This document shows positions 27,114 through 53,544 of a stretch of 64,000 nt of DNA, one piece after another. The position numbers and the translations under genes were made by a program. Each line of letters starts with the position of its first letter. The stretch's first letter is position 1. The stretch is taken from contig JAOVFP010000016.1 of the NCBI GenBank assembly GCA_025738555.1, positions 496,001 to 560,000 on the forward strand. Direction: 5' to 3'. This DNA is from Cyathus striatus. Its lineage: Eukaryota > Basidiomycota > Agaricomycetes > Agaricales > Nidulariaceae. The notes under the pieces are model-generated. The model had not been told where the DNA came from. It saw nothing but the letters and a program-made list of their open reading frames with translations, and did no database searches.

Positions 27114-29534
27114 TCAGTACTCAGACATTACCTTTCTATGTGAAGGTTTGAGAAAATTTAACCATTTTGGTATATTGCTACTCCATTTCCAGATCTGAAA
27201 TTTTTTACATATTCTCCAGCATGCCCATTTCAAAGACTCACAATCCTACCAAAAGAACCATGAAGTTCAGTGTGAAATAATGGAATATTTACTTACCTTT
27301 ACATATGTATATATAGATTTCTTTAATTCACATGCACAATTCATCCATTCTTCTTCTGATAGCACATCTGGCTTATTCCAAAATTGGAATGAATCCAGTA
27401 TATTTCCATCTAGATGTGGTATAACATCCCTTTGAATATATTTCTTAAACTGGCTAGATGGTTCAATTCTCTTGAGCAAATATTCCAGAACAAGAGGTAT
27501 CCATGCTATTTTATTTTTATTATCCACATTGCTGAAAGTGATTCAATATCATATAATAATGAAAATAAGAGAATAATACTAACTTAATGTCTGAAAATTC
27601 CAATGCCCATATTGACCGAAATACATCTTGACATTTTTTATCATCCAAAAAATAAATTTCCCCTCGAGCAGAACTCTCTAGGATTGTTGCTTTCCAACAG
27701 TCCTTCTGCTCATACCATAGGCGAGGAAATCGTCTGGCTATTATGATTGCCTTTAGGTAAGATAAATTATCAACACTTTCTTCTGAAATATCAGGTGTTA
27801 AAAATCCATCAATTACCGGATATATACAATGTAGTATATCTTGCAGAATATTTTTAACCTCTGATGAAAAATTCTTTGTTATTAAAGGAACACGTTAGTA
27901 TTAAGTGGTTAAGAGCAGATGATAACCTACAGTTGGTCTTTCAAGGTTTAAATGAATAGTGAGTAAAATTAATAGCTGAAAATCATAATCATCTTTGGTG
28001 ATTATTTCATGTACGAGGTCTGGGAAACTATGTTGAAGCTCACACAGCAGTGCCTCATTGAACATACTCATACTAAGGTGAATAAATAAAAATATCCTTG
28101 CATAAAAGAGTGTCATACTCAATGAGTCAGATGTTCCTAGTCCATGAAAATTTCGAAATAAGGCAATACAGCAATGTCCAAGAGTAGTGTGTGCTTTCTC
28201 CTTAGCAATAAAAAATTCCTTCGACCTCGCCGGATACATCAAAAAGTCACTAAAAGATGCATGGGTAAAGCAGATTTTCAAATTATTTTCATCTGGAATG
28301 ATCATTATGGAGTGTAGATCCACCAGTAACAATTTTAGTTCATCTACTTTCCTACCTAACAATAATGAAAGTCTCTCATTTGTTTTCATACTCTCATTTA
28401 GATACAGCAGTGCCTCAAATACTGGAGTAATGAATGGATAGTCTTGTATTCTAGGTGTTGCAGCTTTTAGAATAAATGTGTATAATGCATCTAGCTCAGC
28501 ATAAGGTGATTCTTTGGTGTTAACTTCAGGTTTTAAAGTAATTATGGTAAGAATTCCTTGTCTAGGATCTCGACGATCATCAGATATATATTTCATTACA
28601 GTGGAGGCATAGATAAACTGTCCAGATGATTTTTGAATTAATATCTTTACATCTTTCTCAGAAGGCCAGTTAATGTCATTTGAAAGACTCATTGCTAGAG
28701 TATGTGTCCACTTAATTGCAGAAAATTCACTTCTAAGATATATCTCTATATCTTTTTCAGGCTGATAACGGTCATTAAGAACTAGTCCAATCCATGTGGA
28801 GTGGACAGTAGGTGAATTGAATGTATTCCTGATTTTTAATTCTGGCCTGCTTGTGATTAAAAATTGAATATATGCTGGTTTCTGATATGCAATTATAGAA
28901 ATCATAGTGATTATCCTTGACTGGACTTGTGGGTCACTGCATTCATCCAGGCCTTATTCTCAAGGTGTTTCTGTAGAGGTTCCACAACAAGTTTTAGCAT
29001 TTGCTTTTCCATTGTGTAATTGAGCAAGGCTGGATCTTGCACGAGCTGAGTGGCTACATATTCTCTTGTGCCAGGTACAGACACAACCATCCGACACGCA
29101 ATTGTGGGGACAAGGTTAACGCCACTATTACGTCCTGTTCCAGTGGCATTCCTTGAAAAAAAGAAGCTTGAAACCAGCTTCTTTTCATAGTCGCATCTTT
29201 CACATATCGTTTGCGCAATTGTAGTTTTTCCGGCACCAGCGGGTCCAGACAGCCACATAACTCTTTCCTTTGCATCCTTATAGTTAACCCAACTCATTAT
29301 GCCTTTTATCACAGCTATTCTTGTGTCAGGGTGGCATTTTGGAGCGTCACCACGTTCAGCAGATTGGTGACCGGCACCAAGACAAGCAGCTTTAGCTAGG
29401 TGATGGAGTTCTGATGTGCGCCTAGATTAGTTCAATCCAATGGTAAAGTAAGCCATTTACGGACCCTTTCCTCCTGGCCCATCCATTGCGTAGAAGTGTT
29501 CAATGGTAAAGTTGTGTGCGTTGTTAAGCGACAT
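27114..29534 (-). pseudogene. NLR-like NACHT protein A, Walker B frameshift
   Basis: Five-exon NACHT gene: 29465-29534 (MSLNNAHNFTIEHFYAMDG), 27931-29410, 27584-27873, 27297-27531 and 27114-27245. Intron positions and phases match paralogs B and C. Pre-NACHT motif APKCHPDTR, Walker A GPAGAGKTTIAQ, then SRPELKIR, SSGQFIYASTV and FTHASFSDFL. Between 28950 and 28963 the paralogs' Walker B strand (L-V-I-I-D-G-L-D-E-C) is broken: four bases are missing, so only GLDEC can be read and in another frame, and about 30 residues before it are absent. Exon 2 length (1480 bp) is out of frame by exactly this amount. Everything after the break stays open. It is a pseudogene unless unusual splicing bypasses the lesion. 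NLRs of this class are thought to act in fungal non-self recognition. Confidence 0.85.
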
Positions 29535-29600
29535 GATAAGCGAAAGAAATATATCGCAAATTTGTAACGACGTTGAAATTTGAGGCCAAAACGGGGCAGA

Positions 29601-29610
29601 GGTTTATATA
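29601..29610 (-). promoter_or_regulatory. TATA-like box of NLR A
   Basis: On the minus strand, TATATAAACC about 67 bp before the ATG; NLR C has TTATAAACC at the equivalent place (53611-53620). Confidence 0.45.
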
Positions 29611-31607
29611 CCAATAAACAACATAGGCAAGGGTCATGTGTCTACACGAGGAATCCTCATGGTAACGCGAGCCACTACGCATGTCAGCTACTCCTAACCC
29701 CGTTAATATTACCTGTGGGCAACTCCTATGCACGGCACATGTTTTTGCTTTTTATAGATCTCGTTTGGTGTGATAAGTTAATATAGATCTTCTTGAACAA
29801 GGCTGACGAAAAATAACTAGCAATGGACGAATCAGGCTCGCCACGCTCACAACGTTCACACATATACAAGTGATGTTTTGAGGTGTAACTGCGATGCGAT
29901 GTTAACGGAAAACCACGATCATACAGACGTTAGACGTTCGATTAACGCACATCGGTAACGATACATATTCAACTGTCCAACATATCGGGTGGACCATGCT
30001 TAACAACGTGTCGGTTCAGCTATCAGGATCACGGTGCAATAGACCTAACGAGGAGATATTCGTTAAGCACAAGAGACATTCGAGATCTACCAACGAGCGT
30101 GTGTGGCACAGCTTGTCGTTGAGTAAGTGGCTCCTTAACGCTAAGTCCAGCGTCATAGAAATATCACGTGTGAGCTCATGAAATAGAGAAATATTGATAA
30201 ACGAGAGGTGCATGGTTAATAGTGCTGTGGCTAAGCGAAGAGGAAAGGGGGGGGCGTGTTATGATGCTTATGAGCGAAAAAAAGCTGATCATTTAGAGGG
30301 ATAGACACGAGTCGCAATGATAGTTGCTACGACGAAAAGAGGTAAAAGACGTACCCATGAAGGCGTAGATCGCCCCGAAACCTCCGAAGTATGGCAAGCA
30401 TGAGAAAGCGCCATAACCCAGGATAACTGGTGGAGAGCAAGGGGGTGTAAATTCGATCGAAAGCCTAGGCACCGGTTGTGCCTCTTGAACGAGGTGAAGT
30501 TGAGTAGAGAGGCGTATGACGTGGCATAGGAGACCTGAGTGGCACAGATAATATGTGATGCATTGATACCATCCGATGACGCCGCAGCGACCACAGGCAA
30601 GACAGCCAAACGACAGCGAACACAGAGCATATCAATTCATCCAGAGAACGTCACGATCGGTCATCACGCTGCTCCAGGCCTCAAAAACACTCCAACCCTC
30701 AATCCTAAGGTCCAACGTCCACGACTACATCCCAGCAATTCACACCAGATCGATATCTGTATTTCAGGCCCTCATTGCATCCATCAGCGTAGAGGGTAGA
30801 CTAACGTCCGGATGAGAGACATCCGTCACAAACGCGGCTGTAAAAGCGAGTTTGCGCCTGCTCGAATAGGGATTAAACTAAGATGCAGTGAAGGGTTAGT
30901 GGCTCTATTAGAGGGGGTAAAACAAGGGGTATAATGTGCAACAAGGATGTATGAAGAACGAGGGTGTCTAGAAAACCAGTGAGCCGCATAACCAGAGTAC
31001 GAACATGAGAAAAAAGAGATACTGAACAGAAGAAGACTTACGGAACGTGCATAAGTAAATCATCTCGAGGCTACGGGCTTCGCATCGTAAAAGCTCTTGT
31101 CACTGGGATTACAGATGTGAAACCCAACAAAACTCTCCAGCCAGAGATGAACGATTTATAATTGAGATGCTCTCTGCGTGTCTTACCTACAGGGAGGAAA
31201 TAGTTGAGTAACTAGACTAAAAAGCGTAGGATCCTGGATAAAGAGACCAGAAAAGTGACTGTGTGGGTGGTCTATGACGATGCCGATGCAAGAAAAAGGA
31301 GGACCAAATGAAAAGGTACTCACAGTGCAGAATCTCATCTACGACTTCATATCGATAATAGTGACCCATGAATGGTTCAAATAGAAGCTTCTGCGTCTGA
31401 CGACAATCTTGTCTTTGTGCGCCTCTTAACTGGAGTCACTCCTGAGTCCCAACAACGTCCGTCCGTCCTCTCCAACCACCACGCACGGTGCACGACTCCT
31501 ACGTAGGTTGAACTTGTGGACAAGCCAGATATAGACAAATGTACGACGGATTGTTTGAAGAGAGACAAAGATTCAAGGCCGGTGTGCGTATCGTCGTAAT
31601 TCACAAT
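29611..31607. other. Intergenic, no gene recognised
   Basis: CpG-containing sequence with short frames on both strands and no recognised protein. The last ~40 bp (31568-31607) are the left half of a dispersed R repeat interrupted by the MULE-like element. Confidence 0.4.
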
Positions 31608-31616
31608 GACGAAAGC

Positions 31617-33097
31617 GGGCCTACAGGAATTCCAGTTGAGTGTCACTCGAATGTTACTCAAACGTTACTCGAATTGTCACTCAAAGTGTTACTCGATTTT
31701 CACTCGATTTTTGCGCGCTTAAGTATCTTGTTTAATTTCAGTGACTTAATTACATGATTTATATACTTGTTTGCTACTCCAGTTGATAAATGGCTATCTT
31801 ACTATTATGTACCTAATGAACAATATATTAAACTGAAAAAACTAAGTAAAATGCGCAAGAAATAAGCTAGTAATGGTATAATATTTTTCTCACTGTTGCA
31901 TATGTCACTCAAATGTCACTCGAATTTCACTCGAATTTTGAATTGTCACTCGATTGTAACTCAAATGCTACTCGAACGCTACTCGAATTTTTACTCGAGT
32001 GAAATTGTTGTCACTCGAAAAAAATATCACTCGAATCTTACTCGAATGTAACTTGAATGCAACTCAACCTTCACTCGAATTTACGAACTTAACTCACTCA
32101 ATTTTATGTCAATAAATTTAATTGTACTTCTTGTGTACTTCACTCTCATCCGCCCTCCCGCTCATTGTTTCCCACGCCTCCGCTTATCATTTATGATGAA
32201 TGCCAACCCTCCCGCTCATCGTTTCCCACGCCTCCGCTTATTGTATTCAATTCCCACTCACCGCTTCCCGCCCCTCCTCTCTCAAAATTCCCACGGTATT
32301 TCCTTCACCAAATACTCGCCCTTAACATTTCCCACGCATTTTCGCGTTGCCCGCCGTCGGTTATAATTTCCCACGCTTCATCATTTCATCAATTTGTCAT
32401 GTCCCGCCCTCCGCTTTTATTTTCCCATGCACATATTGCTAATTTATTGCACTTTCTCTTAAATTTATAATCATTCAAAAGTACCTATGCTTCATGAATT
32501 ATAATTGTAGCATTCATTGTACAAAAGTATTAATTATTCCACAGTAAAAAATTGAATTATTTCGCATTTTAATAAGATTACCTTTTCATACAACATCTAA
32601 GGTACAGTCTAATGTATAAAGAAGAGTATATAACAGATATTATAAAAAGATTCAAGAGAAAATAGGAAATATTGAGCTAGAAAATGCGAAATTACTTGCT
32701 CGCTGTTGAGCATGATGATGAGGAAGGGTGCCCATCAACAGATCACCCATCAATTATGTGCGGCGGCGTTGAGGAAGCGAGTTTGATGGCATTGATGGAT
32801 GTCAATGATAGCAGTTGCAAACATGGACAAAGGCGAGAAGAAGCGTGTGAAAAATTGAACAAGGCGGAATGTTGAAGGAAAAAGCGGGCGGGGGGCGGGA
32901 CAGTGGGGAGACAGTGATAGTAATGTAGAGTATAAGTATTTATTAAACACTTACCTTTACGGACTTATTTTTTTAATAACTTGAATGTGATTTGAATTGT
33001 TACTCGAATTGTCACTCGAGTGCAACTCAAATGCTACTCGATTGCAACTCGAACTCACTCGAACAAAATTGTCGTCGACTGGAATTTTTGTAAGCCC
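31617..33097. mobile_element. Modular MULE-like element with ACTCGAA arrays (copy 2)
   Basis: Perfect 9-bp duplication GACGAAAGC (31608-31616 and 33098-33106) and inverted ends GGGCCTACAGGAATTCCAGT / GGGCTTACAAAAATTCCAGT (outside inward). Interior order: array of about 10-bp units (ACTCGAAT, TCACTCGA) at about 31640-32095; C-rich TTTCCCACGCCTCCGCTTAT repeats at 32150-32430; AT-rich spacer; centre with CTCGCTGTTGAGCATGATGATG (32698-32719); G-rich block 32880-32915; second array 32985-33070. No transposase. The insertion interrupts a dispersed R repeat. Less decayed than the copy at 9620-12305. Confidence 0.85.
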
Positions 33098-33106
33098 GAC
33101 GAAAGC

Positions 33107-36003
33107 AACGTGTGCAAGGTTCGGAACTAGATCTCACCCGGAGCAGCCCGGAGCCCATTCGGCTTCTTGATCGGTCTCGACGCTTGCTCGCAAGCCTCAA
33201 GGATTATGTAGTTATAACCGGATTAAGAATAGTTTCGGCTTGGTAGAACTGTTCAGATAAAAGTAAAACCGCAGAGATCTTCAAATGACGTTACGTTTGG
33301 GTAGAAATGAGGCGCGCCGTAACAAATACATCTAACTCTAGAATTCTACAATTACTTAAAATCTAAAATATCGTTTGTCTAAGTTGGGTCTAGTTTCATT
33401 CTTCTGCTCCATTGAAGTGACTTGAAGTTCTTCAGAGCGTAGTTATAGCATAGCTATCTTCCTCCATCCGCCTCCTCTCTGTTCGATAATGTAACCCCCA
33501 CAAAATGTAAAGATGACGGTGTTGGTGAATGCTCGTTGGATATAGCAGATTTGCGGAGGTTGAGTATTAAACGCGATCCCTGAATGACATAAGGTTGGGC
33601 AATTAAAGAATTAGAGCTCTGAATGCATACACAGAAAGAATAAAGTGCGGACATCCATCTAGATATATAAATAATGAGCGACGAGGGCAAATCCAAACCT
33701 GGATGGCTCACGGATAAAGAATACCAGGTGCCTTATTCAATGGGCCTCTAAAGGGGGCTATATAATAAAATAATAGAATGACTACAAGTGGCAGTTACTT
33801 GTCAAGCAAAATGATGATGAAGAGCTAAGAACAATACCAAAAATACTGTGTATGGACTTATTGCATTAGCAACCTTTACAATTTAGTGTATTAGAAACCG
33901 AATCACTGACATCATTGGAAACATAACACCATCTCGCGCATATGTAACCAGCAACGGGCTCAAGCGTGTTAAGCGTGCGCAGTCCCTAATGCCCATTATG
34001 TTTGTATACTGAATGAATTTTCTTGCCGTCAACGCGAAATATAATGCTAGGTCGAATAGTAAACAATATATTTATCTGGTACAATACGACACTCACCGCC
34101 AGAGCATACAGCTGGTATCCTTATAATAAACTGTAAGGATAAGACTTTCGACAAATAGAATAACCATCACATACCCACAAATAAGCTGGAGCCTATGCAA
34201 ACGGGAATAATCAATATGTGACCAGCACACCGAAATATCAGGTAATGGGACTGCTGTCTCAATCATAGTAATAGCTTGAAAAATCCCAGAGACTAATTGA
34301 AGCTGGTTTATGGTGGTTTAGCTATACGGCCTATTAAATATGGTAATTGCATACCCCGAACAAGACTGATATTTGGATAAATTTGCGTAAGTAACAAATC
34401 CAGGTGAAGTAGGATTACAGCATACTGGTCTCAAGTATTATGAGCAGCCATATTACTAATTGATGTTTCAGCCAGGAAACAGTGGTTATGATTCTTGTAG
34501 AAAAACTCGCCTGGTTTCGTATGACCATACAAGGCACTTGTTCGTATCGAAAAGATGATGTTTGTGGCGACAGACACAGGAAGGATACCTCCGCTTCATA
34601 AGTGAATACATATCATCGGATGTCGATGTGTGAACTGTTAATCAGTGATACAACCAGAGTAGTAGTAAGGACGCACAATTGAGTGAACCAGAATAAAAAT
34701 TTACAGTTCCTACAAGTTTTATTTTGAGCATCACACCTAGAATAGCTTGAGTCTTACAACTATGAAAATATGTATATATCAGCACATAAGCTCTAGATGT
34801 ATTAATGGTAGACTCAGGCTTACTCGTTCTAGGCCATAAGGGGCTTGGAAATTCGGTTATGCAGACATAAGCTAGGATCTGAGAGTGGACTTACAGGCTA
34901 ATTGAATGCTGCAGTTTAATAAGCCACAATTCCATTTTAAAATCAAAAAAGAAAACATACGAAAGGAAGAAAAGGGGATAGTATCGGCATGCGAGATAAA
35001 GGACCTTTGGGGCTGAACATGGTAATCTATGGATTCCACATCAAATAGTACCAAATCTTCTAACCAAATGAAATTCACTACATACACCCACACTAGCTTG
35101 ATTTCCTCATAAAGATTCAAGCCAACATCGTAGAGCAGAAACGTTATGGTGGATACTAAAGTATACTGTTAGCATCGCAAACCAAGCTTTGCGCAGTTAA
35201 TTTCCACTTACTGCATGAGGAATTTATACCCTGAACAATTTGGATATAAGGCAATTCTGTTTGAGTAGTTATACTCGCATTTGAAGTCATGACAATTATC
35301 TACAAAAGAGAGATGAAACGATAGTGGTCGAAATATGTTAAGCAGCCTTAAGTATGTGTTGGATTCCACAATTCGGTGTGTTGAACTACACTGACAGGAA
35401 TAGGAATCTATGTTGAAGTATCGGGCCCTGAACATTTGGTCAAACCTTGGTGGGGAACCTTCAAAATTAATCATGTTTTATTCAAACCAACTGCTCAGTG
35501 CTGATCGGTTACAGTTTTTCCGCAGTTCAAAGGCCTAAAGTACGAGACAGGAACGGGAGGAGGCTGGAGCCGGTGGGAATACTAAGAGAATAACCATCTT
35601 TTCTTAACGCTGTCAATGAAGTTGTATTCCTTTTCCTTTGAAGTCTATCGAATACGGGACTTCGTCGACGTTTTTTACGGTGCGCAAAGAAAGATCTATA
35701 TCTGTGTTACGATTATTTTAAGCTTTGGTGAAGGGCACTTAAACTGAAAAATTGGATTGATTATACCTGAAGTTGTAGCTGCTAACCATGTGAGATTACT
35801 ACTTCCTTACTGATACAGACCTCCCTGCGATGCCGAAGACACCTGACGAAGAGTCGATGGAGTAGATATTAGGGAAATTCAAACCTGACTATACAAAAAT
35901 ACGATACAATCAAACAGCGATAAACCCTCAGTCGGAATGAATTGGGCCGTTACTGTGCCGCAGTCTCTCATACATGGCAGAGCATCCCCTTCCTCCCGTT
36001 AAC
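33107..36003. other. Intergenic, no gene recognised
   Basis: 2.9 kb with only short overlapping frames. I see no domain, RNA gene or repeat with a second copy. Confidence 0.4.
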
Positions 36004-36201
36004 ATGTCTTCTGAAAATCTTCAGCCATTTCAGTCTCTTGAAGAACAGATCTCGCTTCTAATGGTGTCCTTTCATGTTGCCGTCAATCAGATATGTGAGG
36101 CATAGTTCAAAGGGATGGTTGTTGAAGCTGCAGAACACGCTATCTCTATGTGGGCTCACGTTAACGCAATTCATTCCGTGATTGAACTCCGCTCTGACTA
36201 A
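36004..36201 (+). pseudogene. Short unrecognised coding-like fragment
   Basis: A frame from ATG 36004 reads MSSENLQPFQSLEEQISLLM..., is broken by TAG at 36103-36105, then continues FKGMVVEAAEHAISMWAH... to TAA at 36199-36201. Composition is protein-like, but no family was recognised. It ends close to the repeat starting at 36231. Confidence 0.3.
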
Positions 36202-36251
36202 GCATCAGCTGCCTTCATTCCCTGGTAGTTCCCACTACCTTTTAAGGTAGT

Positions 36252-37555
36252 AGACCGGAGACCGATCTGCCTATCCTGGGAACGAGATCACGCTTTTTGT
36301 CACATAAGGACGCGTGGGCTATCACATTGATAGGCAGACTGGTCAAACTCATTAAGGTTTTGATGTAGCGTTCCTTACCCTTTGCCTTCCCCAAATGCTC
36401 CTCCCTCTCTCATGTATAATATACCCTATTATTCTTCAACATACATACAGTATTAGTTCCTGTATATATTTCAGAGAAAATATTAGGTGCAATAGTGGAA
36501 AATGGAGCAGTGCATGAGCTCTGAATTGAAACCAGTACAGTGCTGCTGTAGTAGGTTGTAACCTGTTACATTATTGCCCTACATATTTTACAACATTTTC
36601 ATGATATTTCAACATTTTAACCTCACATAGATCTTTCTTATGAGTTCTTAGATGTTTTGATGTCCCAGTCAGATCCCACAGTGGGGGACAGAGGTGGGAC
36701 AGCGTAAGGAACAATATACTAAAATGTCAATGAGTTTGACCAGACCATCTATTGACACGGCGGGCTTTTAGCTGTCCAGTTTCAGCTGTCCTTTGGCCTG
36801 TCGTTTGATCTGTCCTGTTTGGCATCACACACGTGTATGTCACACACATCAATCCAAGTTCTGATGGCTTTGTAATCGATGGGTAAGAGAGACTGCACCG
36901 AGCTGGTGCATAAAAAATATGCTGTGATTGTGAGACCATCTAATATTTGACTTGCAAAACAAAGTATGTACTCGCACTCAATGTCTGTATAGTTACCGAT
37001 GATTGTATGTAGTATTTAATCCACTTGAGTAATCTTGAGGAATTTTCATCAAATCCTTGATCTGGTCATTCTTGTATCTTATATTCACTTCGTTTAGAAT
37101 GTATTTTGTACAAAGAGAAGAAACAAAGGTGAAAATTTGTTCCATATAAATATCTCTTATTAGCACAAGCGTGTGAAAATTTTAATTATGGGGTAATAGG
37201 TATACTTTTACAGTATATTTCAGGAATAGAACGAAAAATGTGAATTTTAAGAGATTAAAATATTTATATACTACTACTTCAAATATTTGGATGGTCTACA
37301 ATGATGCATTTTGAGCGACAATTTGTTGGTTATCACATGTCGGCTTGGCTTGATTTTGTCTCGACTTCGATTATCAATCACCACCCAGTTTGGTATGTGT
37401 GACATCGTGACTGATGCCTGAACAGGACAGATCAAACGACAGGCCAAAGGACAGCTGGAACTGGACAGCTAAAAGCCCGCCATGTGATGAGATACCCCAC
37501 GCCAGTCATGTGATGCCAGTGTGATCTCGTTTTAGACAGTTCAGCTTCTGGACTA
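36252..37555. mobile_element. 1.3-kb insert flanked by TTAAGGTAGT
   Basis: A 10-bp direct repeat TTAAGGTAGT (36242-36251 and 37556-37565) brackets this segment. Joining the flanks gives CCCACTACCTTTTAAGGTAG then TTGGGTA, matching an uninterrupted relative at 56614. That makes 56614 an empty-site counterpart. The ends show no strong TIR, and it carries a nested MITE (36756-37484). Confidence 0.6.
36756..37484. mobile_element. CACTA-like MITE with ~105-bp TIRs
   Basis: Inverted repeats of about 105 bp (36756 to about 36860, and about 37380-37484) begin CACGGCGGGCTTTTAGCTGT (right copy CATGG...). The flanks carry TGA on both sides (36753-36755 and 37485-37487). Each TIR holds three AGCTGTCC/CTGTCC motifs. 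A CAC start with a 3-bp duplication suggests EnSpm/CACTA. No coding capacity. Confidence 0.75.
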
Positions 37556-37565
37556 TTAAGGTAGT

Positions 37566-38814
37566 TGGGTATTAGGGATGTTTGAGCCACTGGATAAGGT
37601 AATACATATGAGGATCTTGGATAAGATCTAAACCTGATTGGCTGGAGACTGATATGTTAGTCCTGGATTTGATGGCTCTCGAGTCTTGGTCTCTTTTATG
37701 ATCATCTTCATCCTATTATACACTTCGAACCAAACTTGTATTCCAAAGATGCACCATACTTACTGTGTACACTACACCATACTTGATTTATGTTGTTGAA
37801 GCTACATGGTATGAGCATGTGTACAAATATGGTTCAAGGCACCCATGGTGCGAGTGTTCTCCATGCCCCAGTTCTTTCCTCTCTGCTCTTGGACTCAACC
37901 TCAGCTCTTCTTGCACCATTGTGACATTGATTTAGGTTGATGGTGAATATTCTCCAACTTGGTGCATACACAGACTTGAAGGGTTCATGTTGGTTGACAA
38001 AGGACTTGAGCAATGCAGGTGCATGGGAGAGATGGCAGGAACTATCATGTCACCATCATCATGTATGCCCCACTTGCAGCCTTGCACCACCCCCCTGTCC
38101 CTCTCCCAAAGGCCAGTGCTCTATGTTCAATGCCCTACCAACTGCCTCCCCTCCCCCTGATCAATGTTGTTGATGGTGAAGATTCTGCAATGTGGCAATT
38201 ACTATGACTTGACAGTGGTGTTGGTTGATACTGTGTAGCATGGCATGTGCTTGATGAAGGACATGAGAAGGCTGCAGGCATTGTTTCATATAAGGAGTAT
38301 CAACTCTTTAGCATACATTGTTTACCCCTCACTTGCACTTTTCCCCACCCATCAGCACTCAGCACTCAACAACCTACCACCTCACTTCCTCCACCCCCCA
38401 GTTCCCCCACTGATCATTGGCCCCTTCTACTCACATCACAGATCATCAGACCCATCACCTTACCACTGACATTTCACATCCCTGATATCCCTGTGTAATG
38501 TGTACTGGCTATGGCAAAGGTGTTTGTGTGGCCAGTTTCTCTCTGGCATTTTTGCTGGTGATGTGCTGGTTGACCATTAATGGAGTGTGTGCTTGAGTCA
38601 GGGGGAGAAGATGTGGGAGATGTGGTAGCTGGAGCCTGGGACTTGGAGGGTTGGTGCTGTTTCATGAGACTGGTACAAGATTGAGAACCTTGGTGCTTAC
38701 TCATTTTAGTAAGCCTCTGCTATTGCTTTCTTTTTACTCACTGGATACTTACTAAAGGTTGCATGAAATAGTCTACATGCATACACACCAAGCTGTATTC
38801 TTATCATCCCTCAT
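37566..38814. other. Repeat-derived region with an internal direct duplication
   Basis: Begins with the repeat head shared with 56639. Two related stretches start GTTGATGGTGAATATTCT (37938) and GTTGATGGTGAAGATTCT (38170), about 230 bp apart. No recognised gene; a minus frame at 38474-38704 (Ser/Gln/Pro-rich, starts MSKHQGSQSC) is unsupported. Confidence 0.35.
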
Positions 38815-38822
38815 ATGATGCA

Positions 38823-39570: not shown

Positions 39571-39849
39571 ATGATGCATGGTGACCAATACTGACACATT
39601 CTCTGCACATCTCTTTCAAATGTCATGTGCATATGGTCTCCTGCCTGGGCTTCAACTTGAAGGTACAGTGTACATTTGTGCACAGTTGAAGCAGTTGAAG
39701 TCTTGAACATATCTTCTCTTCTGTACAAATCTTATCCTGTGCATGTAGTACCTAACAAGTCCAATGCCATTTTATACCAAGTACCACCTTTTTGTACTAT
39801 TGTCTAAGTCACAAAATCAATTGAGTTCAGTGGCAATGCATCTAGTACA

Positions 39850-41669: not shown

Positions 41670-42506
41670 ATGTCAAATAAAACTCTTCTTACATTACCCA
41701 ATGAACTCTTTCAAGAGATCATCAAGCAGGTATATCCCAGTACTAATAAGTATAGATATGATCCACCATTCTTCATGCCACCCTTCAAAGAGGTTATTGA
41801 CCAGGGAGTTTCCATGAATCACTCTGATCCACCTACATCAATGCTACCTCTTTGTCTCATTTGCAGACAGTTCAATGATGCAGTATCTCCCTTGGTGTTT
41901 TATCACACTGTTGTGGTTGGATATACCACGAATTACAGTGATTTTGTGGAATATATCAAATTGCTGGCTAATGGGATGCATACTTCCCTCAGCTGTGCGA
42001 AATGGGTCACAATATTGGAAGTAGGTGCAAGGACCGATATTCTGTGTAGCAACAACAAGGTGCACATAAAATTAATGATTGGAAGGCTAAAGAGCCTGCT
42101 TCCACTTGCTATTAGAAAATTTAATAGAGCAATGTGGATTAGGTGAGCATGTGCATCTCTCATTCAAAATCATTTGCACTTACAACAAACCTACTCTAAC
42201 AGTTGTGTTACATGGGACTCCAGAACTGATTGGAGTAGAGACTGCATTGTATCAGGAATCTCTCAAATGCCTTCTTTGACAGCATTGAATATAGACATCT
42301 GCTCTTTGAGGGTAATGGCTCCCTTCCAAATAGATTCTATTCCTCCCTTGGAAGAGCTCTCAATGAAGACAAATTACAATGCCCCAAAACATTGTCCAAT
42401 TCAAGGTATCCCTGAACTTCTCTCAAAATTGTCCTCTTGCCTTCACACTTTGGCCATTCATAATCTATATGATTCTCTGAAGCTCAGAACACTTTATAAA
42501 ATTTAA
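41670..42506 (+). CDS. F-box-like protein
   Basis: Two exons, 41670-42142 and 42203-42506, with a 60-bp GTGAGC...ACAG intron; 258 aa. Residues about 7-75 resemble an F-box as seen in Agaricomycetes (LLTLPNELFQEIIKQVYP, a loop, then LPLCLICRQFNDAVSPLVFY). The C-terminal half has leucine-rich spacing (MPSLTALNIDI, IPPLEELSM, LSSCLHTLAI). F-box proteins recruit substrates to SCF ubiquitin ligases, and large fast-evolving F-box families are common in these fungi. At 258 aa it is shorter than many relatives, so the 3' end may be truncated. The promoter side has CTATATCTA about 58 bp upstream. Weak match overall: F-box identity is inferred from the LPxE and LICRQF pattern. Confidence 0.6.
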
Positions 42507-43994
42507 TACATATACTATATTGTGTGATGTATGTTTATGCAAATTTATATATTACCATGGCTGTTTAATGTTGAGATCTAAGCTTTTTTATGTAGTTCCA
42601 AATTTTCACAAAGAAAAAATTCATTCATTAATATAATTGCTTGTAAACTGAGGAATAGCACAATTTTTTTGAACATATAGTCAGTATACACACTAGGAGT
42701 GAACACTGAGTGTTCAAGAAGGTTGATTACTAAGTGTTGGGTTATACAATTAAATTTAACTAGAGAGATCAACCACCAGCAGTGGGCCAGGGTATGAAAC
42801 TGTAATGTGACAGCAATAATTTAGTAGTTGAAATTGTACCATTCAGGAGAAGAAAGAGCTAGAAGTATGTTGAGAGAACATAGATAAGCACTAACAATAT
42901 GCCCAATGGAGTGTTCACTGGGTCGACCATAGCAGCAGTAAAACGGCACCACAGTGATCCCCAAAGCACACAAGAGCGTGTCGTTATGAGCGGGATAGAT
43001 AACTAGACGAACAGGAGCGAAGTGTTAGAAACTTCAGAACACTTGACAGGTCCTCGTAAACATCAATTAGTGACGACAAAAACGATATCGATTCGGAGGA
43101 TGTACCATGAACGGACCGTAATGACAGAGAATTGTCGAACTGCAACACAGAACCTCAGCTTGAAACAGAACAACCGAAGTGAACCAACAATGACCCCCAC
43201 CGCCTTCAGAAACGCTACAACTGTCCCCCACCACACATCGACGATTCCCGCATAGAGGTTGAACATCGAACCCTCGGTAACCCGATTATACGCCATACTT
43301 GATGTATTGATGCATGACACGGCGTGAAGAGAATGCAATGCATACTACAAACTCGTTCGAGGTTAAGATAGCCTTGCGGCCTCTGCATCACACATCCCAC
43401 ACTGGAGCAGGATCTGGATGCCTTCGTGGTGCGCGGGCTCGACTGCATGAATGTCACCGACATCTTGGAAGTTTGATGTCGTGACTGAGCGCAGCGAGAA
43501 TTCCTTCAGAGCGTGGAAATTAGCATCCGACACGGGACGAACGAATTGCCTATGTTCTGCGGTGCGGTGCAAAAGGGTCAGTAAGTGAAGAAGGAAGGAG
43601 CTGTGGATAAATAGGAGGGGAGCACATCGTTATGACACCAAGGTATGTACAACAAAGCATACGGAAGAAAGAGGAAGTGAAGGGTGCTTTGGGTAGGTGA
43701 ATACAGTGCCGACCCACAAGAACGTGCACAACGATGGGGAGGAAGGGACATGAAAGATTCTAAGAGAGCATACTCACAAGGTACTTACTAACTATCCTCT
43801 CGAAAGTATGAGTATCTCTATCATCACTAGTCCTCGCATCCATCTTTCCTTTAGGCAAGTGTGTCCATATAAAAGTCTTCAGGTCAAGGCTCGAGGGGCG
43901 CAAAAAAAAAAAAACTGGGGCCTAGACATGACATAGAGGCCCGACATCATGAGAAGGGAACTGAATACAACAAGCTGTGTACGATTTCGAGTGG
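42507..43994. other. Intergenic, CpG boundary near 42.92 kb
   Basis: AT-rich and CpG-poor up to about 42920, then abruptly CpG-rich. No gene recognised. Confidence 0.4.
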
Positions 43995-44142
43995 TTCAAA
44001 GTCAGGCCAAGAGTCCGTGTTCGTGATGGTCGTGGTTGATGATGACGAACGCAACGTGTACAACGTTCCGAACAACGATCAGAAGCATGTGAAGTTGTGT
44101 TCGGAGAATCGGAACTCGCTTCGCTTCCTCTCACGAGTCACA
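43995..44142 (+). repeat. Dispersed repeat R, copy 2
   Basis: Best-preserved copy: GTCGTGGTTGATGATGACGA, AACGTGTACAACGTTCCG and AACAACGATCAGAAG, then TGTTCGGAGAATCGG. It lies 0.73 kb beyond the 3' end of NLR B. Confidence 0.75.
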
Positions 44143-44871
44143 TTCTCCACATCCCTCTTCGGTCTATCTAAGTTAACAATCGTGCTTGCCAGTACGACTA
44201 TAGGCCACTACCATCTACACTTTGAAAATATGGATACTGCTGGATAATTTAATATATCTAGTGTCCAGGCTCGTTGTGAATTCCCATCTTCTCCCCATCA
44301 CATCATCAGATACTTATGCAACTCATATCTATGTAGATCGATGTTACAGATTGATTAGGCATTTCGTCGTGACCTTCATCGATTGTCACACGAATAACTT
44401 ACGCTGTCATCGATTTATAAATGAGACATTTGACAGATGGGCGCCTGAGCACTTCTATTACAGCTGCCAGCTTATCAGCGCAGTCGATCAGATGGTAATA
44501 GTCATGAGAGCGATCATGGGTATACATCAAAGTTTAGGACTCATGTAAAGTTACGTGTATTGTTGTAAGCGCGTATTTTATCGATAGTCTAGGGATCAAG
44601 TAGCAAACACAGTACTTCATGAAATGCATTACTAGAATGTTAGTATAGGTTTTATTCTGAAAATTTGCCGTTAATCACTGTCTTATTTCTCACATATATA
44701 TATACTTCAGCGATTTGTGTGTACAATCTACATCTTTTTTGTATCTTTTTTTAAAAGTGAATGATTACAACATCGCGACGTACTCCCAAATTATTGCCTT
44801 TCATGTGCTTGCACGTTTGGCCTCTATCTTCAATATGCACAATGCTATGATAATTACTACTTTCCAACATG

Positions 44872-47463
44872 TTAATTCTCTGGTATCTTTCCCACTACAC
44901 ACAATTTATGAGTTGCTATCCTCAAGCCCCTCTGTAGTGTATGCACCAGAGACCTCGTATTTTCTGCTAGCAAGGCTCTCCTATCCTTATTCAGCACCTC
45001 ACACTCCTAATAGCTACATAAGCTTCAGTCAAGAAGATGAATGTTCCACATACCTTTACATATTTATGCACAGATTTTCTTATTCCGTCAGCACTATCCA
45101 ACCATTCTTCCTCTGATAGGATATCTGGCTTATACCTTAATCTAAATGTTTCGGATATATTTGCCTCCAAATGCGGTACCACTTCCTGACTGATAAACTT
45201 CCCAAATGCAATGGATGGCTTAATTCTTCGGAGTAAATATTCCAGGGAAAAGAGTCTCCATGGTCGTTTATCAACATTGTAAAGTGTTTGTCTGCAACAA
45301 AAGTTAAATAACGTGAAAATCAAAGTAGTAGACTATGAAAGACTTACTCTAAATTCGACCCATTTAATACCCATAATAAGCGAAATACATATTTGCTTTT
45401 ATCATTACTCAAAAATAAATTTGTTCCTCTGACAGGACTTTCAAGTATTGTTGCCTTCCAACAATCTGTGTACACTGCATTATTCCACAAGGAAGGGAAT
45501 CTTCTGGCTTGTATAATTGCCATTATATAAGACAAATAATTACCATTTCCTTCCGAAATGTTAGGCATTAATAACCCATCAATCACAGGGTATATATGAT
45601 GGAAGGTGTCCTGCAGCAGTCCCCTAACCACAGGTGAGAAATTCTGTATAGTAGATTAAGATATAGCAATCGAATATAGACATAAAACCTACATATGATC
45701 TTTCCAGAGAAAACTGAATATTGAGTAGATAAGATATGTGCCAATTAAAAACACCACCCTTAAATAGTTCATGCACGATATCTTTAATATGGTGTTGAAG
45801 CTCATATAACAGTGATTCATTAAACTTACTCCGGATAAGGTGATCAAATAGGAAGGCCCTTGCATAGTTGTGTGGAAGTGAGTTAGTTTCTTTATGCTTC
45901 CAACATCGAATTAAAGAGATACAACAATGCCCGAGAGATGCATGTGCCATTTCCTTTGCGATAAAAAATTCCTTCGATCTGGAGGGATCCTTCAGAAAGT
46001 CACTGAAAGATGCATGGGAAAATCGGATGTCTGAATCATCAGAATCCGGGATAATCATTATGGAATGTAGGTCTGCAAGTGACAACCTGAGTGCATCTAC
46101 ATCAACACCAAATAGTTCTGAAAGTTCCAATACTGATTTTGGATACTCAATAACTGTATTATCTCTCATATATAACAGTGCTTGAAATACGGAAGTCATA
46201 ATCTTGTAGTCTTCCACCTGTGCTGTGGCAGATACGAGAATAAAATAATACAATGCATCCAGTTCAGCATAAGGTGATACTTTTGGGTTCAATCCTCCAA
46301 GCTGTAAGTCAATAATTGTAGATAGTCCTTCTTTGGGGCTTTCGTGATCATGAGAAATGTATTTCATAACAGTGGCAGCATAAATGAACTGTCCAGATGA
46401 TTTTGCAACCAGTGTACTTATATCTTCTTGAGATGGCCAGTTTAAATCACTGGAAAGACTTGTAGCCAATGTATGTGTCTGCTTTATCACCGAAAATTGA
46501 CTGCACATGTATGTTTCTATATCTTTATCTGGTTCATAATGATCATCAAGAACAAGTTTGATCCACATAGAACAGTCAGTGGAGCTGAATGTATTTCTGA
46601 TTTTTAGTTCAGGCCTACTTGCAATGAGAAATTGGAGTGGCACTGAATGATGATTTGCAATGCTAGCTATCATTGTAATAATTCTTGACTGTACTTGAGG
46701 ATCCTTGCATTCATCCAGACCATCGATTATAACAAGGTGTGCCAGTGGTATAGCAGATGTTGTGGTTCTGCTAGAAATAGTGGTAGAACACTGTGCAGGG
46801 TGTTTAACACTCATATTCCTACCGACATCTGCTAGAGGCCCAATAACAAGTTTCTGTAGTTGTATTTCCACTGAGTAGGTTAGTAACGTTGGATCCCGAT
46901 TAAGCTGAGCTGCTACAAACTCTTTCGTAGCTGGTATAGAAATCAGCATTTGACTAGCGATTGTAGGTACGAGCATATGTCCGTCATCTCGTTCAGCTGT
47001 ACGAGAGAAAAAGAAGCTAGACATAAGTTTATTTTCCTTATCGCATATATCAGCAACTGTTTGAGCGATTGTTGTTTTCCCTGCTCCTGCGGGTCCTCGT
47101 AACCACATAATCCTTTCCTTATGGTCTTTCGAATCTACCCAGCTCATGATATCATCGATCACTGCAGTCCTAGTTTCAGGATGGCACTTCGGAGCATCTC
47201 CTCGCTCAGCAGATTTGTGACCTGCTGCGAGACAGGCGGCTTTTCTAAGTTCTGCCATGATACATTTAAGTACCAAAACAAATCACTACATTATAACATC
47301 ACCCACCTTTTACATAATCATCTGTTCTATTCGCTTTTGTGTTCCGAACCAGTCAATTACAATATTACGACACAATTATCTAGCTTTACGCACCTGTTAC
47401 ACTTTTTCCATCTACCGCATAGATGGTTCCAATGGAGAAGTTTTGTGCCTTTCTAAACGACAT
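44872..47463 (-). CDS. NLR-like NACHT protein B (intact)
   Basis: Five exons: 47394-47463, 45693-47251, 45348-45643, 45054-45291 and 44872-45006; all junctions are GT-AG and in phase, giving 765 aa. Exon 1 encodes MSFRKAQNFSIGTIYAVDG, a short peptide conserved in A and C. Residues 40-51 carry RGDAPKCHPETR, then Walker A GPAGAGKTT (76-84), Walker B LVIIDGLDEC (196-205), SRPELKIR (235-242) and a winged-helix-like SSGQFIYAATV (308-318), all expected of a NACHT STAND NTPase. The following block has FSHASFSDFLKDPSRSKEFF. No WD40, ankyrin or TPR repeats follow, so it is a short-form NLR. The last exon (ECEVLNKDRR...) is supported by matching acceptors in A and C but is the least certain. Family members are candidate non-self/xenobiotic sensors triggering cell death; no effector domain is recognised here. 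Confidence 0.85.
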
Positions 47464-49925
47464 GAAGTAATGCTATTAAAAGGATGGAATAGCAGTGCGG
47501 GGGGATAAGATTTACAACACAACGAATATGTAGTGAATTGATTCTACACGTGTTATCCCCGCACTTGCGCTATATTTAGGAAGAAGACCTCAATCCAGTG
47601 CATGTCATTCATGCTGTTCCAAGGCTGTTCGACGACCCTACCCTCATTTACTATCTGGTGCAAAAGACCCGAAAAACCATCGCTTAAGCAGGGAAGTCTA
47701 GAATTAGCACAGGAAAGTCGACAGGAGAGAGAACGAAGCGTGAATAACTCATTATAACGTGAATCGATTGGCGACAATGAGATTATGAAACCATGCAGTA
47801 TCAGTGTGACTATGAAAGGTAGCGGCCTTTGAACGAAGTGCCGAACGTGTAGTAATGTCAGGCCATTAATTGCACCAGAATTAACACCCGAGAGGAATAC
47901 ATGATCAACCAACTATGTGCATCATAACAGAAATGACCGTCAACAAGGCTTCCGAGGCTTGATAGGATTATTACTACCAGTACATAAGCTTTCGATATTT
48001 ACGAGAGGAAAAGAATGAGAAATTTGCCTGAGGGCACGTACATATGATGTATCAAGTTCGAGAATTCTCAACGATAGCTCATAGGTAACAGTTCATTGCG
48101 TACTCGCTTGGTAGGGATGTTACACCTGTGAGTCTTCAGCATTCGTGTGGGGGGAGTGACCCAGAAAGGGAATGAGCCAAGCGATATGCAAATCTACGAC
48201 AAGTGTTGAGCAAGAAATTTGCCTGAGATCACATACATATGCTACGTTAACATCCAGATTTCTTGGCAGATTATCGATAATGGATCCTTGCGTAGTCAAT
48301 AGACGAAGTCAAAACTAAGAGCCTTCAGGATACAGGGGTATCTTGGCATAGAGAAGATGAGCAATGTGCTCGAAGGAAACCTGAGAGCAAGATGGAAGGC
48401 TGTAAACACGTTGGAATCTTTATAGCACTTGTGTAATGCCCTTGTTAGCGACAGACGAGCAAAATACTCGAAGCTGAACTTAAACACTCGAACGTGAGAG
48501 AGAAGTGAATCTTATTGCTAATCTGGAATAAACTAGCACAAGAATAATGAACTACTGACTAGAAAGACCGTATTTATAGAAAAGAACCATGAAGTAATCG
48601 CATGTAAGTACCCTACACTACAACACATGTTTACTGTGCTTCTACATTAAGAACTCATGTACTACATATGGCTGAACTGTGCAACTGTGCCCATAGTCAT
48701 GATGAGTAACGTATGTTGATATGCATGGTGTCCGCATTGTAGGTCATGTGACTATATCACATGACATAGATAAGATATAATTAGATAAAAGATTAGATAA
48801 GTGATGAAATCCTAACAGCCCTCAATAGTAATGGGTCAGAGTGCCCCATCAGGATAATGTGAAGGGTCAGCATCATCCTGAATGACAGAGTTTTAGAGAT
48901 TTGTGGTACACAAGTCCTTGTACAGTAGACGAGTGAGTAATGGTGTAGTCACCTAATCATAGCCACAGTTTACAGCAGGTAGGTGAAAAAGAGAGGTCTA
49001 CAGTAATGGCTCGATGGTGATTTTAGGACGGTCAGAAGAGTTGACTACAAAGGTTGATATACAACTTAGCTTGATCCATGCAACGCAAGACTCTAAGCTC
49101 CCTGCCATAACCTTTCCCCTACATTTTCTACTCCACTTGCCAAGTAGCGGTCTACCAAACACACCAAAATATGATCATCAAATGGTATTCGCATAGTTCC
49201 ACCGAGACGTACTACACAGTCCAACAGCGGACAATTGCACCAAGACCTGAGATGCCAATGTCAGGAGTAACAGCAAGTCAAATGGCCGCCAATGCAAAGT
49301 CATTTCGTACTGTCTGCTCGCATCAACGCATTATTCGCATTTGCGTTCTCCTCTCACTCACCCTCTCTGAGGTCTGAGGCGTGAACTAGTTCGAAGTTCG
49401 GATGGCCCCGCGGATATGTATCCCTAATCATGTCGTGTACGTTCATCCAGTGAGAGGGCTGACCACTGACAAAGCAGGCGCGTGTGTCCGGTTGTACATT
49501 CCTAGGTGGTAAGACGAATCAGTGTGTTGGTTTAAAGAGAAAGGAGGAAGAGGAGAAGAGACACAGTGAAACGTCAGGGACTCCAATGTTGCAATGAGAG
49601 AATGGTGTACAAGATTAGGAAGGGTCAATGATGCATTGCAGGCGGATATATTGAATGGCATAGCACTGAGAGCAGCCTTGGAGGATTCCAGAACACCCAA
49701 CCATGAAAGAAGAATGAGTCTAAATCACTCATAAGTCATATGCCAACTACCCTCTGAGTCTTAGAACCATAGCCCCCTCCTGCCAGGCTGCCACTACGTA
49801 TAAGACTGTCTCAAACACATCTTCTCGTTAGGTGTCTCCGAGGAAAGCCTTCGAGCGAATGGGAAAGTGAGAGGCTATGATGAAGCTTGGAGTAAGATAG
49901 ACTGGGACTGGTGGGAAAATGGTGC
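47464..49925. other. Intergenic; direct repeat at 48.0-48.3 kb
   Basis: No gene recognised. AGAAATTTGCCTGAG-led stretches of about 85 bp recur at about 48015 and 48213 (direct orientation). Confidence 0.4.
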
Positions 49926-50012
49926 TAGTGAGTGGTAGTCGTGGTTGGCGATGACGAAACCAATGTGTCCAACGTGTTCTGAACAATGATTAAACGTGTG
50001 TGAACTTTTCCT
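49926..50012 (+). repeat. Dispersed repeat R, copy 3
   Basis: GTAGTCGTGGTTGGCGATGA, AACGTGTTCTGAACAATGAT and CGTGTGTGAACTTTT match the other R copies. It lies 1.06 kb beyond the 3' end of NLR C. Confidence 0.6.
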
Positions 50013-51074
50013 GGTCGCGTCCCTCGGGCCTCGTGCCCAAGTAACTCTCATCCGACCCTCACTACACGTCCCGGACACCCTTCTGACCCTTCACGTCATC
50101 CTCTGCTCCTCCATGCTCCTCCGCTCTGCTTCACGTAATTATACCAAAACAACAAGGAAAGCGGGGCGTCCCACAGTTGATTACTTCTCCTAGTAAGCAA
50201 TCTAACTCGCTCAGCTTACCGATACAAGGCCTTCGAGATGCCAGGAGTACCGAAATTGCGCTAAAACGTTGCTCTACATTACTTAGTCAAGGAAAATCGT
50301 GTGGTCCGTATGGGGAGAGTACTACGTATCAATTATCGATTTCCTTGCTGTAGTCGGCCAATCAATGTACTTTTTCGTTTCTGAGTACGAATATGAATGT
50401 GAGTTCCTCTGTGACCCACCCTATGTCTAACCCGTGTAATGACAGAGACCTAGTATACCCCTCAGTCATAATATCAGTGCTAAGCTGCAGAACATTTTAA
50501 CCTATGTCTTGTATTCGCCCCACCCTTCGTATCAGCGATCTCATGTGCTGACAGACCCTGACTTTCTCCATTAAGTCCGTCCCAACACTGGGGGTTTCAT
50601 GACTATGATGGTAGAAATGGTACGAGGAGCGTCACAAAAACATACCAACGACCATCTTTACACGCCAATATATTCAAAAAACTTGGAAACCTTATACTGT
50701 CACAATAGTGCGCTCTCTCTAACTTCGTTTCATGACAAGTTGATGATTTTATCATATTGACAATACCTATAGCAGTACGTCGTTTTGTAGATGTGGTAAT
50801 GAAGTTCATTGGACATCAATATGTTATCTTTGTTCAATACCGCACTATACTACCCAGGCTGCTGATTCTCAATGTCAAGGGGCGTGAAGGGGAAAAACAA
50901 TATGAAATAAAATGGGATATATGATGATAACGAAGTATATCCAAGACGAGTGAATATATATAGTGTACAGAGGATAGACAAATAGGTAGATTCCAGTACA
51001 AATGTGAAAAATGTGTGCTGATTGTTAAGACTTTCAAGTCATGGCACATTCTAGTCCATCAATCACTTCTTTCT
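50013..51074. other. Intergenic, no gene recognised
   Basis: Short frames only; nothing with a second copy or domain. Confidence 0.4.
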
Positions 51075-53544
51075 TTACAAACCATCACACTCCTATCAAA
51101 TACATGAGCTTTAGTCGACATACATTATGATTTGCATACCTTTACATATGCATGTATAGATTTTCTTATTCCATCTGCACTATCCAACCATTCCTTTTGT
51201 GATAGTTCTTTCAGCTTGTTTTCTGTCTTAAATGCAGTAGATATATTTTCCTCTATATGTGGAACCACTTCTTGTTGAATAAAATTTCCAAATTCATGAG
51301 ATGGTTTAATTCTTTGGAGTAAATATTCCAAGGCAAAGAGTCTCCATAGTTGCATTTTCTTTCTGAAATATGTTTCTCTGCCACAAATTCAATTACAAAA
51401 ATGGAAGATAATAGAATACCAACTACTCAATCTGAATCTGAATATTTTAATTGCCATATTGAATGAAACACATCGTGACTTTTATCATTATCCAAAAATA
51501 AATTTCCTCCTCTGACAGGGCTTTCAAGCATTGTTGCTATCCAACAGTCAGCAAGTATTACATGATTCCACAATGAAGGAAATCTTCTGGCCATTATGAC
51601 AGCCAAAAGGTATAACAAATAATTATTGCCCCCCTCATAAATATCAGGTCTAAAACTTGCATCTGCCACAGTATATATGGAATGAAGTATGCATTGCAGC
51701 ATTTCTTTCACCTCAGACAAGAAACTCTGTGTATTACATTAGAATGAAGTTGTCAAATAAAGATAGATAACCTACAGATGATCTTTCCAGAGAAAAATAA
51801 ATATTAATTAAGTAAGATGCATGCCAACCATAAACACCAATTCTAAACAGTTCATGTACAATATCTGTGATGCAAATTTGAAGCTCATTTAATAGTGATT
51901 CATTGAAGTTACTGAGAAAAAGGTGACCAATTAAGGAAGCTCTTGCATAGTATAGTGGATGTGAGTCAGATTCTTTATGCTTCAAAACAGACTGGATTAA
52001 AGAAACACAATAATGCTCAAGTGATGTATGTGCTGTTTTCTTTGCTATAAAGAACTCCTTTGATCTGGAGAAGTCCTTCAAAAAGTCACTGAAAGATGCA
52101 TGTGAAAACTGAACTTCTGAATCATTTTTATCTGGAATGATCATTATGGAGTGTAGATCTGCCAGTGACAAACTGAGTGTATCTGTATCAATACCTAAAA
52201 AATATGAAAGTTTTGACACTGATCTTGGGGACATTGGTATACTATCTAACATGTATATCAGTGCTTGAAATACAGAAGTCATAATAGTGTGGTCCTCCAT
52301 TTCTGCAGTGGCAGTGGATAGAATTAACTTATATAATGCATCCAGCTCAGCATAAGGTGATACTTTCAAATTTCCTACAATCTGTGAGTTAATAACTGTA
52401 GAGAGTCCTTGTTTGGGGTTTCTATGATCATGACTAATGTACTTCATGATAGTGGATGCATAAATGAACTGTCCAGATGACTTTTGAACTAGTATGTTTA
52501 AATCACTCTCAGATGGCTGGTCAGAATCAGTGGACAGACTTTTAGCTAGGGTATGTGTCCGCTTTAATATTGAAAATTCACTGTGAAGATATGTTTCTAT
52601 ATCATCATCTGGGTTGTAATGATCATCAAGAATTAGTCTGTTCCATATAGAATAGTCAATGGAGCTGAATGCATTTCTGATTTTTAATTCAGGCCTACTT
52701 GCAATAAGAAATTGGAGTGGTACTGAATGATCATTTAAAATGTCAGCTATCATAATTAGGATTTTTGATTGTAATTGGGGATTCTTGCATTCATCTAGAC
52801 CATCAATAATAACAAGGTGTGGTATAGCAGCTAATATGTTTCTGTTAGAGCCAGTGGTTGTATGGTCTCCAAGTTGTTTAGCATCTATATTCTTGTTGAT
52901 TTCTGCTAGAGGTTCAATGTCAAGTTTTTGCATTTGTATTTCCATTGTGTATGTTAATAATGTTGGGTCTTGTTTGAGCTGAGCTGCCACATACTCTTTT
53001 GTCTCTGGTACAGCAATCACCATTTGAGCAGCGATAGTAGGGACAAGACTATGTCCATCATCTCGTTCAGTTGATCGAGAAAAGAAGAAGCTTGATACAA
53101 GTGTCTTTTCCTTATCACATCTATCAGCAACTGTTTGAGCAATGGTTGTTTTTCCTGCTCCTGCAGGTCCACATAACCACATGATCTTTTCATTACGATC
53201 TTCTGAATCTACCCAGTTCATGATATCGTTGATGACTTCCTTCCTAGTTTCGGGATGGCACTTCGGAGTATATCCGCGCTCTGCTGATTTATGACCCGCT
53301 GCGAGACAGGCGGCATTAATGAGTTCTGCAGCGCTACATGTAAGTACTGAAGTGTAAAATGCTACGACACTACCCACTCTTTATATATTTGTCCGTATTA
53401 TCGACTTTTAAGTATAACAGACCAGTCAATCTCAATTTTGTTGCGAAGACAAACTATTCAATGTTACATACCAGTTCCGGAGTCTTGCCGATCAACGGCA
53501 AAAACGGTTCCGATGGAGAAGTTGTGTGCGTTTTGAAACGACAT
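51075..53544 (-). pseudogene. NLR-like NACHT protein C, stop at end of exon 3
   Basis: Exons 53472-53544, 51776-53325, about 51427-51726, 51140-51362 and 51075-51092 by alignment to B. Exon 1 encodes MSFQNAHNFSIGTVFAVD. NACHT core intact: TPKCHPETR, Walker A GPAGAGKTT (about residues 77-85), Walker B LVIIDGLDEC, SRPELKIR, SSGQFIYASTI, FSHASFSDFL. At the exon 3 end, A and B use a phase-2 donor (AA|GTTAGT, GA|GTAAGT). Here the sequence reads YSDSD then TGA directly before GTAGTT, so the donor is shifted and a stop enters. Exon 4 remains open and exon 5 is only ECDGL-stop. Translation would give about 640 aa, keeping NACHT but losing the last ~80-120 residues. It may be a pseudogene or a working short form. 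Confidence 0.75.

Follow-up and report, generated by a model that had tools for sequence, protein, structure and literature searches.

Introduction

Agaricomycetes carry on average 72 NOD-like receptors (NLRs) per species according to a survey of 2014 (PMC4986451), in which annotation succeeded for only about 15% of basidiomycete NLR N-termini. With receptor sets so large and annotated N-termini so few, NLR signalling in Agaricomycetes is largely open. The closest described system is the motif group NLR05/08/22/29/44, a largely basidiomycete group of candidate amyloid-like motifs comprising 689 sequences (Wojciechowski et al. 2022, PMC9815663). NLR05 and NLR22 motifs lie mostly at the very terminus, and the authors suggest that the group is either a homolog of HRAM or its basidiomycete variety. 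A literature search of open-access papers yielded nothing closer. Described here is a short peptide encoded by a separate first exon (exon 1) in three NACHT-type NLR genes of Cyathus striatus, designated C, B and A. The genes lie on the minus strand of the window, that is, the whole 64,000-nt stretch analysed (C16:496001-560000), in a genome of 107.45 Mb and 24 contigs. The closest named proteins to these NLRs are from the same species. The peptide is coding, conserved, very N-terminal and outside the predicted fold, and is common to NACHT and NB-ARC receptors.

Conservation and coding constraint

Exon 1 of genes C, B and A encodes the common pattern MS[FL]..A[HQ]NF[ST]I...[YF]A[VM]D. Paralogous loci were examined (n=70, 30 plus 40, from 102 matches), of which 66 have a recognisable Walker A; L042, L046, L077 and L078, in which none was recognised, are excluded from the motif count. 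A hidden Markov model (HMM) of exon 1, built from 11 seeds, was run over the 700 nt upstream of Walker A. The motif is found upstream of NACHT at 8 bits or more in 57 of the 66 loci, B and C included, against 0/66 on the reverse strand, 0/66 further upstream and 0/66 downstream. Nine of the 66 have no match at this threshold. At 5 bits the figures are 59/66 against 0 (reverse strand), 2 (further upstream) and 2 (downstream). The seeds came from 9 of the 66 loci, and 48 of the remaining 57 are positive. Three NACHT paralogs with a separate exon 1 of 70–73 nt and a shared peptide had been reported in a sequence-only reading of this DNA; coordinates and splice sites agree with that report, and the counts above are more than chance would give. 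In L004 and L006 (both C14) the motif is joined in frame to NACHT without an intron. In L008, L070 and L074 (C5) and in L005 (C6) a motif-like stretch lies deeper in a longer N-terminus, e.g. SFYGANRFTICQANMVDN.

Mean identity among 28 exon-1 copies is 59, 71 and 44.5% at codon positions 1, 2 and 3, respectively. The proportion of synonymous differences (pS) is 0.763, that of nonsynonymous differences (pN) 0.356, and pN/pS is 0.47. Residues M1, A6, I11 and D18 are identical in 27–28 of the 28 copies, F3 in 25, F9 in 22 and L14 in 21; codons in use at M1, F3, A6, F9, I11, L14 and D18 number 1–8 each. This pattern indicates that the peptide is under constraint at the protein level and that silent sites drift. 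A start of translation in exon 2, which the sequence-only reading had named as a possible refutation, is spoken against by the same codon pattern and by Cyathus gene models, as far as sequence can tell.

Distribution in NACHT and NB-ARC receptors

Three consensus peptides compared with the whole genome (E ≤10) gave 42, 23 and 17 matches, corresponding to 79 distinct sites, which were placed by the coordinates of domain matches (64) or by direct reading (15). All 79 are NLR starts, 77 of NACHT genes (2 truncated) and 2 of NB-ARC genes (L088, L089). Where sites were placed by coordinates (64), the motif precedes the domain match by 55–513 nt (median 88). Five further genes of the same C6 stretch were picked by NB-ARC match alone; the motif exon is present in L090, L091, L092 and L094, and no exon 1 is recognisable in L093. 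Among the NB-ARC loci read, the motif thus occurs in 10 of 11 (L088–L092, L094, L106–L109; L107 apparently truncated). The NB-ARC motif exon, in those genes where it was worked out, is 60 nt long and of phase 0; that of NACHT genes is of phase 1. The Cyathus NB-ARC models P0128, P0131 and P0164 start with the motif.

An NB-ARC-type query gave 59 genome matches, 32 of them starting at query residue 1–3. Ten of these 32 were read and all stand before NB-ARC; 11 lie just upstream of NB-ARC matches; 11 are other sites, 3 of which are near an NB-ARC-type linker match. Sites of this query beyond the assigned set include C12:1821529, C8:2729043, C1:1065752, C2:2474809, C6:4405148 and C19:87112. These other sites could be further NLR starts or different carriers.

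Predicted structure and composition

The C. striatus model P0002 was predicted with AlphaFold2 from an alignment of 56 sequences, all taken from 120 listed matches; the mean predicted local distance difference test score (pLDDT) is 84.1. Residues 1–11 and 13–21 have pLDDT <50. From residue 61 on, 27 of 38 ten-residue blocks have pLDDT of at least 86. The first long element is a helix (26–37), and single bridge residues are placed at 11 and 14. In the predicted monomer the peptide is outside the NACHT fold; low pLDDT says nothing on function. This model and the sharing of the motif between NACHT and NB-ARC genes both speak against the motif being just a piece of a larger globular domain. The earlier description of a conserved N-terminal peptide free of a classical effector domain is borne out by its position outside the predicted fold and by Pfam, in which no effector domain was matched. 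Foldseek matches of the P0002 model are mostly general AAA+ proteins (ORC, TnsC, spastin), with some STAND proteins (MalT complex, plant NLR RPP1).

Core residues 5–17 of 26 NACHT-class peptides, NB-ARC copies excluded, are 7.4% charged and contain 0% proline; the NACHT part of P0002, taken for comparison, is 23.8% charged with 4.3% proline. The helical hydrophobic moment at 100 degrees is not beyond that of shuffles (fraction 0.29, residues 1–19). An amphipathic helix, tried as a candidate, is unsupported at this angle. A signal at 135 degrees (0.003 of shuffles, residues 1–19) comes from a set of 25 combinations of angle and window and is uncorrected for their number.

Gene models in the window

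Exon 1 of gene C (53472..53544, 73 nt) encodes MSFQNAHNFSIGTVFAVDRQDSGT and ends with a leftover G. Its NACHT exon has an open frame at 51734..53325 (NACHT family match C16:548685-549185). Gene B has exon 1 at 47394..47463 (70 nt, MSFRKAQNFSIGTIYAVDGKSVT plus G) and an open NACHT exon at 45624..47251 (NACHT family match C16:542578-543114). Exon 1 of gene A lies at 29465..29534 (70 nt, MSLNNAHNFTIEHFYAMDGPGGK plus G). The exon-1 donors are GTATGT (C), GTGCGT (B) and GTCCGT (A). In all three genes exon 1 can be followed by an in-frame AG acceptor and a NACHT-frame exon beginning AACT. The NACHT open frames of B and C score above the Pfam cut-off and hold Walker A and Walker B.

Between these exons, stretches of 27 nt with AG/GT borders preserve the frame in gene C (53404-53378, i.e. 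53378..53404; VDNTDKYIK) and in gene B (47333-47307, i.e. 47307..47333; ANRTDDYVK). A similar insert is found in P0002, which reads MSFQNAHNFSIGTVYAVDGKSGT-VDRTDHYIK-ELRNAACL, and a comparable one in P0010; the mini-exon of L011 and L012 is 30 nt long. An additional 27-nt exon therefore probably separates exon 1 from the NACHT exon in genes B and C. Should this mini-exon be spliced in, the G left over from exon 1 would join it instead of the NACHT exon. The direct junction of this G with exon 2, as first proposed, holds in so far as the join is in frame in C, B and A, and probably does not apply to B and C.

In gene A the first half of NACHT is carried by exon 2 (28911..29410), whose frame is lost near 28958 and which is without the Walker-B segment. 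The second half of the NACHT region continues in another frame, from GLDEC on (27901..28953; tblastn match C16:524159-524956). The segment before GLDEC (Walker B) is gone; exon 1 is still open. Gene A is probably a pseudogene, because the Walker-B segment is missing and the frame changes near 28958.

Pfam applied to 20 of the window's 65 open reading frames of at least 100 aa gave a single match, RVT_1, and no effector family. The RVT_1 frame (reverse transcriptase, E 4.7e-17; 20395-22020, plus strand) places a retroelement near the NLR genes. A phage collection searched with gene B DNA gave no match, which is uninformative.

Relatives in other fungi

The exon-1 HMM matches at 8 bits or more 17 of 114 N-termini collected by a NACHT search and 10 of 110 collected by an NB-ARC search, and none in equal numbers of shuffles. 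The profile search suggested earlier for NLR N-termini thus finds the motif, mostly in Cyathus (15/17 in the NACHT search, 6/10 in the NB-ARC search); the rest are from Crucibulum, Amanita and Laccaria. N-termini from other genera are mostly unmatched at 8 bits. Among the matches listed, Agaricales NLR N-termini often carry the motif in a GG form (approximate pattern F..[AS]..[FV].I.GG.F). A GG-type HMM was built from 10 N-termini (32 selected by pattern, 22 dropped for incomplete windows). Alignment of the exon-1 and GG-type profiles with hhalign gave E 4.8e-5 and a probability of 68% over 12 columns (first half of the motif), in one comparison without a shuffled control. Applied to 15 exon-1 peptides of the own genome, the GG-type HMM scores 13 at 5 bits or more, the two lowest being 2.3 and 3.0. 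Six of the 15 score above 9.5 bits, the maximum among 1500 shuffles, of which 16 reach 5 bits. Exon-1 peptides and GG-type N-termini may accordingly be regarded as one putative family with a variable turn.

A different N-terminus is found in P0241 (Sphaerobolus stellatus), which has an NB-ARC core 41% identical over 69% of the query and a patatin domain at residues 16–217. The N-terminal slot can therefore hold an effector.

Search for a partner

No effector-side copy of the motif is present among the 79 genome sites, which were obtained with tblastn at limited sensitivity; separate effectors carrying it, proposed as a target by the sequence-only reading, did not emerge. HeLo (PF14479) and NACHT_N (PF17100) have no match in the genome, nor did any control genome match, so absence is not shown. 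MLKL_N (PF22215) has five genome matches. No motif is seen by eye in the stretches of these genes that were covered; the frames of L079, L081 and L082 run past the stretch, with C-termini outside view. Two small MLKL_N-like genes, L080 and L083 (C11), have no recognisable motif in the stretches covered. A query of concatenated motifs against a set of 5.8 billion proteins gave 60 candidates, none with E ≤10. This null is read here as lack of power; motif-bearing truncated NLRs failed to score too.

A GG-form query gave five genome sites, of which one was read (L110, G000:C6:5561050-5561550). L110 begins with the GG form MPMFEGASGVKISGGDFNDVARDQ. Its start, MPMFEGASGVKISGGDFNDVARDQTNHI, is followed by apparent introns and then by a Gly/Asn/Ser-rich stretch; no NLR is present within the 501 bases read. 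The GG-type NLR profile scores L110 at 24.3 bits, against 7.1 for the best of 1000 shuffles. A 69-residue L110 query has 29 genome matches (C2, C6, C12, C17 and others), several with the tail only. Non-NLR genes with the GG form are a candidate partner family. Long odds must be set on the specific proposal that the partner of the NLR tags is a non-NLR multigene family of the L110 kind, meeting the receptors through matching N-termini and nucleating condensates or fibres.

Proposed mechanism and alternatives

The exon-1 peptide is tentatively interpreted, with a probability of about 0.47, as a portable tag at the N-terminus of Agaricomycete NLRs that self-associates upon receptor oligomerisation and recruits a partner. 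In the resting receptor the tag would hang loose, unattached to the NACHT or NB-ARC core. A trigger would make the nucleotide-binding domains oligomerise and the tags cluster. Each tag may form a pair of short strands, hydrophobic in character (NACHT-class pattern ..F.I..L.[AQ].D), on either side of a turn whose length varies. Clustered tags would stack on each other (beta-arch or cross-beta), and the stack would recruit or convert a partner with a matching strand. The outcome would be regulated cell death or a non-self response. Strand shape, stacking, partner and cell death are parts of the proposal, as is the amyloid role. The sharing of one motif by two classes of nucleotide-binding domain fits a signalling tag.

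Several observations weigh against this interpretation. No effector-side copy was found among the 79 genome sites. Hydrophobic periodicity at 160–180 degrees is absent from the 26 NACHT-class peptides, and Pfam with seven N-termini gave no family but one chance match (E 0.21). Position 14 is occupied by a hydrophobic residue in NACHT copies, by proline in 6 of 10 NB-ARC copies (L090–L092, L094, L106, L108) and by leucine in only 2 of 10 (L088, L089). With proline frequent and leucine rare at this position, the NB-ARC class does not preserve the second strand. In PMC9815663, the group NLR05/08/22/29/44 is credited with 0 neighbours and 0 effectors as partner; instances passing the fold predictor of that study amount to 28% for NLR05 and 53–55% for NLR08/22/29, with none for NLR44.

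The missing effector-side copy is at the same time what a non-amyloid regulatory arm would lead one to expect: the peptide would dock on its own nucleotide-binding domain or on a neighbouring protomer, stabilising the off-state or the active ring, and no separate effector would be needed. The spacing between motif and domain match, the bridge residues at 11 and 14 in the AlphaFold model and the suggestion in PMC9815663 that partnerless motifs may help signalosome assembly are consistent with such an arm. It is judged less probable than the self-associating tag. Against it stand the pLDDT of <50 in the monomer model and the placement of one motif before two nucleotide-binding domain classes of differing sequence, which is hard to explain if the peptide is fitted to a single surface. 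Another alternative is a docking or localisation peptide addressed to a shared chaperone, adaptor or membrane, folding on binding and not self-assembling. The peptide is short and N-terminal with spaced conservation (F3, A6, F9, I11, L14 and D18 in the NACHT class), and its tolerance of proline and of changes in turn length is easier to reconcile with a peptide that is bound than with a strand that is stacked. No partner has been identified, however, and the helical hydrophobic moment (100 degrees) does not stand out from shuffles; this explanation is judged slightly less probable still than the regulatory arm.

Exon 1 could also be a spurious or non-functional remnant, similar among genes through recent duplication or gene conversion. 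Many of the genes are clustered on the same contigs, broken copies exist (gene A, L100, L102), and L093 is without a recognisable exon 1. Synonymous sites are, however, largely randomised (pS 0.763) against a pN of 0.356 in 28 copies, and the exon is common to NACHT and NB-ARC genes and present in Cyathus models, more weakly in other genera. This explanation is largely refuted. The exon offers a handle on NLR signalling, to which peptide and fusion tests can be applied: it is short, NACHT and NB-ARC receptors have it in common, and three genome searches found it at NLR starts only.

Comparison with known systems

The patatin-NB-ARC protein P0241 has a related NB-ARC core and differs in that an enzymatic domain replaces the short N-terminal motif. 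PP (RHIM-like) and sigma motifs occupy the same slot on fungal NLRs; the NxGxQxGxN core of PP, as given in PMC9815663, is absent here by inspection. With HRAM and HET-s-type motifs (ascomycete NLR-HeLo pairs) the peptide shares the form of a short NLR N-terminal motif and a NACHT-class core low in charge and proline. It differs from them in that HeLo (PF14479) is unmatched in the genome, though no control genome matched either. The N-to-N arrangement proposed for L110 would depart from the known pairs, in which the N-terminus of an NLR is matched with the C-terminus of an effector.

Most copies differ from NLR05/08/22/29/44-like N-termini of other Agaricales in being without the GG turn. The Gymnopus luxurians core is described as opening with three hydrophobic residues and closing with the pair G[DN]. 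The core here has F3, F9 and I11 as hydrophobic residues and ends with an almost invariant D18, the next residue being mostly G, N or K, without G[DN] in most copies. Shared features are the position at the very N-terminus, short NLR N-termini, occurrence in Agaricomycetes in dozens per genome and placement before both NACHT and NB-ARC, together with a similar character and length (12–30 residues there, about 17–18 here). No effector partner was found for that group, and none was seen here among the 79 genome sites. The GG-type N-termini of other Agaricales are taken here to be members of NLR05/08/22/29/44. The exon-1 motif, first considered possibly undescribed, probably belongs to the same group as a lineage variant, judged by its place, number and architectures.

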